NCBI RefSeq assembly: GCF_000737325.1
Contig: NZ_CP011125.1
Location: 7,378,001-7,442,000, forward strand
Reading direction: 5' to 3'
Length of the DNA: 64,000 nt
DNA from: Sandaracinus amylolyticus
GTDB taxonomy: Bacteria > Myxococcota_A > Polyangia > Polyangiales > Sandaracinaceae
The stretch's first letter is position 1. The number at the start of each line of letters is the position of its first letter. The notes under the pieces were generated by a model. That model saw only the letters and a list, made by a program, of their open reading frames with translations, was not told the origin of the DNA and ran no database searches. Shown one piece after another: positions 22,824 to 35,840 of the stretch. The position numbers and the translations under genes were made by a program.

Positions 22824-22840
22824 GAAGCGTCTCGGTGAGT

Positions 22841-23020
22841 GGCGCGGGGTGGTGGGTCCGCCGCCCGGGGTGCTCGCGGGCTGCTGGACGAGCGGGTGAG
22901 AGCGTCGGGCGGCGGTGGGCGCATCGCGGCGCGAAGCGCGCCGCGATGACTGTCGTCAGTCTGTGATCGACGTCAGCGAGCCCCCGTCGCACGAGGGCGT
23001 CGGACCCACCACCCCACGCC
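22841..23020 (-). promoter_or_regulatory. Approx. 180-bp imperfect palindrome directly upstream of argB
   Basis: Outer arms at 22841-22866 and 22995-23020 pair over 26 bp with two mismatches (left arm begins GGCGCGGGGTGGTGGGTCCG), and weaker complementarity continues inward to about 22888 and 22972. Nested at the centre is a perfect 12-bp stem with an AAG loop (22922-22933 with 22937-22948). If argB is transcribed from upstream, this folds in its leader RNA; it could equally be a small mobile element. No clear target-site duplication is seen. Confidence 0.55.
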
Positions 23021-23108
23021 TGGCACCGCGGTTCTGCCGCCTCGCGTGGTGGAGGTGGCGGTGGCTCGCGACCGATCCGCGCGAGCGCGGCTCGGACGCT
23101 CGCGGGTA

Positions 23109-23204
23109 GCACCGCGCGACTGCGTCGCGCGTGTGCGCGCTGCGCGCGGTGATGGACGAGCACCGCGCGACTGCGTCGCGCGTGTGCGCGCTTCGCGCGG
23201 TGAT
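23109..23204. repeat. Two 45-bp direct repeats, 51-bp period
   Basis: Copies at 23109-23153 and 23160-23204 differ at one base. Each is itself weakly palindromic, with ACCGCGCG at one end and CGCGCGGT at the other. Together with the palindrome at 22841-23020 these fill the 423-bp gap between argB and the thioesterase gene, where I see no gene. Confidence 0.75.
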
Positions 23205-34282: not shown

Positions 34283-34648
34283 TCATCCGCGCTTCGCGGT
34301 GCGCTTGCTCCAGCCGTCGGCCCACTCCGCGAGCGGGCCGAGCGCGTCGAGCAGCGCGCGTCCTTCCTCCGTCAGCGAGTACCCCGCGCTCTCGCCTTCG
34401 CCTTCGCCCGCGACCACACCGGCCTCGCGCAGCTCGGCGATGCGCGCCGCGAGCGACGTCGGCGACACGCCGCCGCACGCCTCGCGCAGCGCGCGGAAGT
34501 GGAGCGGGCCTTCGCGCAGCTCCCACACGACGCGCAGCGCCCAGCGACGCCCGAGCAGATCGAAGAGCGCCATGATCGGGCGTCCCGTCTTCGATCCGCG
34601 CACCGGGCGGCCCGGACGAGGTGCTCCGCGTTGCGCTACGGTTTTCAT
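34283..34648 (-). CDS. HxlR-family transcriptional regulator
   Basis: 121 residues from an ATG at 34648 (MKTVAQRG). The winged helix matches HxlR proteins: LLGRRWALRVVWEL, GPLHFRALREACGGVSPT and LTEEGRALLDALGPLAEW. No cysteine sits near the N-terminus as in the redox-sensing members YodB and HypR; the only cysteine is in REACGGVS. The 17-bp sequence GCTATGAAAACCGTAGC that spans its own start codon recurs, as three tandem relatives, ahead of the gene at 35286, suggesting autoregulation and control of that gene. Confidence 0.85.
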   Translation of the reverse strand: MKTVAQRGAPRPGRPVRGSKTGRPIMALFDLLGRRWALRVVWELREGPLHFRALREACGGVSPTSLAARIAELREAGVVAGEGEGESAGYSLTEEGRALLDALGPLAEWADGWSKRTAKRG

Positions 34649-34651
34649 AGC
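34635..34651 (-). promoter_or_regulatory. Candidate HxlR operator overlapping its start codon
   Basis: On the minus strand this reads GCTATGAAAACCGTAGC, with arms GCTATG and CGTAGC around five bases. It agrees with the 17-mer at 35219 in 14 of 17 bases, or 16 of 19 with the GC that follows both. It contains the hxlR start codon, so a repressor bound here would block its own expression. Confidence 0.5.
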
Positions 34652-34705: not shown

Positions 34706-35212
34706 ATGGACGACGTCCGCTTCTGTCTCCGCTGCGGCACCGCGCTCGAGGAGGTCATGCTCGAGGGCCGCACGCGCAAGCGCTGTCCTGCGCCCGGGTG
34801 CGGCTTCGTGCACTACGGCAACCCGCTGCCGGTCGTCGCCGCGATCGTCGAGCACGTGGAAGACGAGGACGAGACCGAGAGCCGCATCGTGCTGGTGCGC
34901 CAGAAGGCGTGGCCCGAAGGATGGTTCGGGCTCGTCACCGGCTTCCTCGAGCGCGGCGAGACCCCCGAGGAAGCGGTGCTGCGCGAGCTCGACGAGGAGC
35001 TCGGCCTGCGCGGTGAGATCGCCTCGCTCGTCGGCGTCTACGCATTCGTGCAGCGCAACGAGGTGATCGCGACGTGGCACGTGCGCGCGCGCGGACCGAT
35101 CACGCTCGGCGAGGAGCTCGAGGCGTACAAGCGCGTCCCGATCGCGAAGCTGCGCCCGTGGCCTTTCGGCACCGGTCTCGCGGTGAAGGACTGGCTCGCG
35201 AAGCGCGGCTGA
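34706..35212 (+). CDS. Nudix hydrolase with N-terminal zinc ribbon
   Basis: 168 residues from an ATG preceded by GAGGAGAG. A zinc ribbon occupies residues 1-35 (FCLRCGTALEE and RCPAPGCGFVHYGNP). The Nudix box is complete: GFLERGETPEEAVLRELDEE followed by LGL, with all catalytic glutamates. This layout resembles the NudC-type NADH pyrophosphatase but is shorter, so the nucleotide-sugar or dinucleotide substrate is unresolved. Divergent from hxlR; 57 bp separate the two starts. Confidence 0.87.
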   Translation: MDDVRFCLRCGTALEEVMLEGRTRKRCPAPGCGFVHYGNPLPVVAAIVEHVEDEDETESRIVLVRQKAWPEGWFGLVTGFLERGETPEEAVLRELDEELGLRGEIASLVGVYAFVQRNEVIATWHVRARGPITLGEELEAYKRVPIAKLRPWPFGTGLAVKDWLAKRG

Positions 35213-35218
35213 GCGTGC

Positions 35219-35269
35219 GCTACGAATTCCGTAGCGCTCCACAATCCGTAGCGCTACACATTCTGTAGC
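35219..35269 (+). promoter_or_regulatory. Three contiguous 17-bp operator-like sites
   Basis: Three 17-mers abut exactly: GCTACGAATTCCGTAGC (35219-35235), GCTCCACAATCCGTAGC (35236-35252) and GCTACACATTCTGTAGC (35253-35269). The first and third are perfect 6-bp inverted repeats around five bases (GCTACG/CGTAGC and GCTACA/TGTAGC). A ribosome-binding GGAGG follows at 35274 and the ATG at 35286, so the array covers the core promoter and leader. Confidence 0.65.
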
Positions 35270-35285
35270 ACACGGAGGACGAGCC

Positions 35286-35840
35286 ATGTCGCGCTTCCCC
35301 GATCCGCTCTCGCCGCCCTACGCGCCCGAGGTCGAAGCCGCGCTCACCGAGATGATGCCGCGCGGCGCGCCGGTCCCGCCGCTCGCGCTGTTCCGCTTCT
35401 TCGCGCACCACCCGGCGCTGATGGAGGTGATGCGCCCGTTCGCGCGCGTGCTCCTCGGTGCACGCGGGGCCGCGCTGGCGCCGCGCGATCGCGAGATCGT
35501 GATCCTGCGCGCGACGGCGCGTGCGCGCTGCGAGTACGAGTGGGGCGTGCACGTCGCGTTCTTCGCGTCGCGCGTCGGGCTCGACGACGCGACGGTGCGC
35601 GCGACGGTACACGGCCCGATCGACGGGCTCGGAGCGCGCGATCGCTTGCTGGTGCGCGCCGTCGACGCGCTGCACGAGGATGCGACGCTCGACGACACGC
35701 TGCGCGCGGAGCTCGCGACCGTGCTGAGCCCGGAGCAGATCGTCGAGCTGCTCGTGCTCGCGGGCTGGTATCGCACGATCGCGTGCGTGGCGAACGGCGC
35801 CGGGCTCGCGAACGAGCCGTGGGCGCCGTCGTTCCCTTAG
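35286..35840 (+). CDS. Carboxymuconolactone decarboxylase-like (AhpD-fold) protein
   Basis: 184 residues. The CMD fold is recognisable from LAPRDREIVILRATARARCE and YEWGVHVAFFASRVG, although AhpD's catalytic CxxC is absent: only Cys of ARCEYEW aligns, and a second Cys lies in RTIACVANG. It is therefore more like gamma-carboxymuconolactone decarboxylase or an uncharacterised member than an alkylhydroperoxidase. It probably forms helical oligomers. Three tandem operators upstream mark it as the probable main target of the adjacent HxlR regulator. Confidence 0.75.
   Translation: MSRFPDPLSPPYAPEVEAALTEMMPRGAPVPPLALFRFFAHHPALMEVMRPFARVLLGARGAALAPRDREIVILRATARARCEYEWGVHVAFFASRVGLDDATVRATVHGPIDGLGARDRLLVRAVDALHEDATLDDTLRAELATVLSPEQIVELLVLAGWYRTIACVANGAGLANEPWAPSFP

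Follow-up and report, generated by a model that had tools for sequence, protein, structure and literature searches.

The regulators YodB, HypR (YybR), and QsrR bind short dyads and regulate themselves together with redox or quinone genes. The HxlR protein of Bacillus subtilis is an activator that responds to formaldehyde and binds direct repeats. Here, we describe a predicted operator system around an HxlR-family gene of Sandaracinus amylolyticus, located in a 64-kb window (the whole stretch of DNA analyzed; bases 7378001 to 7442000 of a genome of 10,327,335 bp in one contig). The gene, hxlR (window positions 34283 to 34648, minus strand), encodes a winged-helix protein of 121 amino acids (Pfam HxlR PF01638, 52.7 bits; cut-off, 20.8), the predicted binder of the 17-mers described below. 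Its sequence relatives in the PDB are YodB (5hs7), HypR/YybR (4a5n), QsrR (4hqm), and B. subtilis HxlR (7bzd).

The resemblance to YodB, HypR, and QsrR extends to the arrangement of a small winged-helix protein adjoining a small target gene, although the predicted target here is a CMD-family gene and the YodB dyad is unlike the palindrome found here. The N-terminal sensing cysteine of YodB and HypR is also missing from the Sandaracinus protein. The aligned N-terminal region of its orthologues has no conserved cysteine; only Cys58 recurs, in most orthologues (it is absent from L164 and L165). The protein family here therefore lacks the conserved N-terminal cysteine that characterizes the redox-sensing DUF24 subgroup (YodB/HypR). 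The Sandaracinus protein shares its Pfam family with B. subtilis HxlR, but the sequence match is weak. Furthermore, the latter activates from direct repeats, whereas the Sandaracinus sites are dyads over a start codon, a position that suggests repression.

Four 17-mers matching the palindrome GCTAC-N7-GTAGC with at most one mismatch occur in the window, all of them at this locus. One (GCTATGAAAACCGTAGC on the minus strand, 34635 to 34651, one mismatch) contains the ATG of hxlR (34646 to 34648, minus strand). The other three precede a gene of the CMD (AhpD-like) family (35286 to 35840, plus strand; Pfam CMD PF02627, 30.7 bits; cut-off, 23), the predicted target, which starts 16 bp past their end. 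These are site 1 (GCTACGAATTCCGTAGC, 35219 to 35235) and site 3 (GCTACACATTCTGTAGC, 35253 to 35269), both exact matches with perfect 6-bp arms, and between them the imperfect site 2 (GCTCCACAATCCGTAGC, 35236 to 35252, one mismatch). A Nudix hydrolase gene (34706 to 35212, plus strand; Pfam NUDIX PF00293, 55.5 bits) lies divergent from hxlR, between it and the array. The basic description in an earlier note on this DNA is borne out: the three 17-mers tile 35219 to 35269 gap-free, two of them (sites 1 and 3) are perfect inverted repeats, and site 1 agrees with the reverse complement of the site containing the hxlR ATG at 14 of 17 bases. Tandem Repeats Finder likewise reports a 17-bp period at 35217 to 35269 (3.1 copies, 80% matches).

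Palindromes might arise by chance in GC-rich DNA, and matches with one mismatch are indeed common genome-wide (169 places). However, dinucleotide shuffles of the window yield a mean of 0.69 matches (maximum 3), against four observed, all at the hxlR/CMD locus. All four are also kept in congener G002 (L082; ~92% DNA identity), where the hxlR-start site and site 1 are identical to those of the window, site 2 has one central change, and site 3 has central changes. The motif is, moreover, conserved beside orthologues across the phylum, a footprint that already refutes chance and leaves it a negligible probability.

That footprint is extensive. In an order-level set of 184 genomes, we examined the 14 best-matching HxlR orthologues outside the genus, 13 of which are complete (50 to 64% identity). 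The palindrome (0 to 1 mismatch) lies close upstream of hxlR in 13 of the 14 genomes, and each complete orthologue has one or two sites; the truncated fourteenth match (L165) has none close upstream. A phylum-wide draw added 27 orthologues, of which 21 have a site beside hxlR or CMD (0 to 1 mismatch), while six (L251, L271, L272, and L275 to L277) have none within the DNA examined around the locus. Among 18 loci with less similar HxlR proteins, only L066 has a site, a single one with one mismatch. A CMD orthologue adjoins hxlR in 11 of 14 order-level and 20 of 27 phylum-level loci. The two genes are mostly divergent with the sites in their shared intergenic region. G005, from a different genus within the family, shows this layout, with two sites between the genes.

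In rearranged loci with the two genes apart or in the same direction (L155, L156, and L158), hxlR and CMD are each preceded by sites of their own. Sandaracinus has the Nudix gene between hxlR and CMD and retains sites with both. In alignments, several relatives resemble Sandaracinus in having the site directly next to the hxlR start codon or overlapping it. The 57 hxlR/CMD operators that we collected have their GCTAC arms in common, as well as three A/T bases at the centre. Conservation in relatives was the test that the earlier note had set itself, and the palindrome does follow HxlR orthologues and their CMD partner phylum-wide. Its proposal that one regulator controls both itself and the CMD gene gains support from a palindrome conserved beside both genes and not at other HxlRs. 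As a separate observation, a Nudix homologue is also found in the hxlR/CMD locus of G103 (L153), there downstream of CMD, and may form one functional group with these genes.

We conclude that the 17-mers very probably constitute the operator through which HxlR controls hxlR and the CMD gene, an arrangement found across the phylum. This reading draws on the phylogenetic footprint, the separate sites where hxlR and CMD lie apart, the conservation of the arms (below), and congener G001, which lacks the HxlR orthologue and the motif alike (0 copies). An HxlR dimer would bind each 17-bp dyad with its A/T-rich centre. Bound at 34635 to 34651, over its own start, HxlR would shut off hxlR, and up to three dimers side by side on 35219 to 35269 would repress the CMD gene. 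A putative inducer would then free HxlR from its operators. The uncharacterized HxlR-CMD pair thereby gains a testable operator throughout the phylum.

The earlier note had also argued for phased binding, with each 17-bp site spanning 1.5 turns of the helix. This does not hold. Seventeen base pairs are about 1.6 turns, which places adjacent dimers on nearly opposite faces of the DNA and out of phase. Nor is 17-bp abutment general: paired sites in relatives are 19 to 53 bp apart, often 31, 34, or 41 bp, and among the loci compared gapless tiling occurs in Sandaracinus only.

Elsewhere in our genome collection, the tandem form is found only in nine Actinobacteria. These carry tandem GCTACG-N5-CGTAGC pairs (L114 to L122), abutting, at promoters of TetR genes (Mycobacterium, Mycolicibacterium, and Rhodococcus) or YhgE/Pip-like genes (Bifidobacterium), and could indicate that another regulator, such as a TetR-type protein, reads the motif in Sandaracinus. 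Yet the actinobacterial sites have no A/T centre, and the 26 best-matching TetR loci in the two Sandaracinus genomes have no promoter site (at one of them, a site lies >800 bp off). Since the motif instead tracks HxlR orthologues across the phylum, a TetR-type reader is highly improbable. The actinobacterial pairs are apparently an uncharacterized TetR operator resembling that of HxlR, and we regard the likeness as convergence. A viral origin of the tandem pattern was also considered and rejected, as viral contigs lack it.

The motif is not private to the hxlR/CMD locus; the genome has about 60 copies, mostly away from promoters. Exact copies of GCTACRN5YGTAGC number 66 in S. amylolyticus (G000) and 61 in congener G002, compared with 0 to 7 in 18 other genomes. 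A tighter form, GCTACGRAWTYCGTAGC, has 46, 43, and 1 copies in three of 97 genomes and none in the others; a control gave zero. Abutting pairs or triples at exact 17-bp spacing occur at about 20 places. Positions were taken from pattern searches and from sequence stretches that covered nearly all of these places, and the surrounding genes are our own calls from codon usage. A set of the SlmA/Noc/matS kind, kept out of one domain of the chromosome, was rejected because the sites occur throughout it; locus-level GC skew was too noisy for placing the origin and terminus.

Dispersed copies have a distinctive position. Intergenic clusters lie between convergent genes in 16 of 29 cases in G000 and 19 of 37 in G002, whereas such regions make up 11.5% and 17.3% of intergenic positions (enrichment, P = 1.4e-8 and 2.4e-6, respectively). 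Divergent regions are depleted (1 of 29 and 3 of 37 clusters; P = 9e-5 and 0.001), and 26 of 27 co-directional clusters are closer to the upstream gene's 3' end than to the next start. Sites stand upstream of a coherent gene set only at hxlR/CMD; the dispersed copies adjoin unrelated genes, and we found no common theme among the genes flanking them. The array at 35219 to 35269, which begins 7 bp past the Nudix stop codon, is itself in a position typical of the dispersed non-promoter copies, and this counts against the operator reading.

Such positions would also suit RNA-level hairpins, that is, terminators or 3'-end stabilizers behind genes, which at the present locus would end the Nudix transcript. 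Some single copies do lie within longer stems (e.g., L045 and L033). Nevertheless, the two half-sites show no compensatory changes. Of 102 sites, 36 have an A.C mismatch at pair 7:11, in line with independence, with observed half-site classes of 53/36/4 against about 54/34/5 expected, and pair 8:10 also varies independently. Independent variation of half-sites is what protein contacts would give and argues against RNA hairpins. The sites inspected have no U-tract, ordinary terminators adjoin some of them (L031 and L047), and some copies lie within genes. Neither the hxlR-start site nor the orthologous divergent promoters are 3' ends. We therefore consider hairpins very unlikely.

The copies within genes, 11 in G000 and 10 in G002, are read in two frames only, those in which the TAG of the site is not a codon. 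An encoded protein motif, such as YGIRS in a thioredoxin, clearly favours them. We rejected the idea that they are coding coincidences, as all 21 have the A/T centre, which is also present in 93 of 101 intergenic dispersed sites. In a separate genus, three species (G160 to G162; L179, L181, and L182) have a single motif copy within an SDR gene, where it encodes RYGIRSN; this copy is kept in all three despite unfavourable codons.

Most clusters are syntenic between the collinear genomes G000 and G002. In the spanned syntenic intergenic alignments, substitution is 3.6% in the arms and 9.3% in the centre; the intergenic DNA around the sites shows 13.9%, and coding DNA 8.8%. Some clusters have, at the same time, been gained or lost as blocks. 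For the sites at L034, L037, L052, and L099, the other species has no counterpart in its orthologous intergenic region, and L057 has two standard copies where congener G002 has six identical tandem copies (L230:14552-14658). The latter are of the 17-mer variant GCTACCGAATCCGTAGC and stand behind a stop codon. Arm conservation and the turnover of blocks together mean that sites are under constraint where present, while the set as a whole is fluid.

Other repeated DNA was noticed in these genomes. A duplicate of ~1.3 kb on the smaller replicon of G002 (L113; contig C2, 209732 bp) copies the gene end of L050/L110 together with its 17-mer site. A dispersed repeat of 80 to 120 bp (L047:2218-2305 and L053:1714-1915) recurs close to 17-mer sites in a number of intergenic regions in both genomes. 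Within the window, ~300 bp at 22832 to 23149 are 80 to 83% similar to L104, L107, and L205 in both Sandaracinus genomes, representing either a dispersed repeat or a repeated domain.

Restriction to the genus, the block-wise changes in copy number, and the species-specific sites might mark the dispersed copies as a selfish repeat, similar to REPs or minisatellites, with no more than a resemblance to the HxlR operator. Several observations oppose this. Neither G000 nor G002 has a match to the Y1/RAYT transposase family (PF01797), which argues against classical REPs. A 17-bp insertion would frameshift genes and so cannot yield the intragenic copies. In addition, the copies have the A/T centre of the operator, and their arms are conserved. 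A selfish repeat is thus rather unlikely.

Binding of the dispersed copies by the same HxlR is, in our view, probable, since their arms, length, and centre are identical to those of the operator. Judged from sequence and position, their likeliest role is that of weak roadblock, structural, or titration sites bound by HxlR, which would fit where they lie. More tentatively, a one-locus repressor may have become a genome-wide DNA-binding protein in Sandaracinus, serving as a roadblock or structural protein rather than regulating promoters, its operator having been copied to about 40 loci that lie between convergent genes, past stop codons, or within genes. Possession of the protein is not enough to account for the spread, as G005 has HxlR yet only local sites.

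The new element is that the operator has spread, in this genus specifically, to non-promoter positions; our literature search found no report of the GCTAC-N7-GTAGC motif. Sandaracinus provides a naturally occurring example of a local regulator's operator multiplied many-fold within a genus, away from promoters. Gains, losses, and copy-number changes can be compared between two collinear congeners (~92% identical), and the dispersed operators would make it possible to test what purpose transcription-factor sites serve within genes or at their ends.

Two kinds of known system come close. Like REP/BIME elements, the dispersed copies are palindromic, intergenic, concentrated at gene 3' ends, and variable in number. 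They differ in being half the length or less, in lacking a RAYT gene, and in occurring also within genes as copies identical to a conserved operator. The second comparison is with transcription factors that bind away from promoters. CRP at aatC/tnpA, LeuO, and RutR have sites inside genes or where two genes converge (PMC4892627), and PhoB likewise has non-promoter sites (PMC10294691). The positions are alike, but those proteins are global or larger regulators whose sites were mapped experimentally, whereas in Sandaracinus the exact operator of a local autoregulator has been multiplied within a single genus, frequently as two 17-bp sites that abut.
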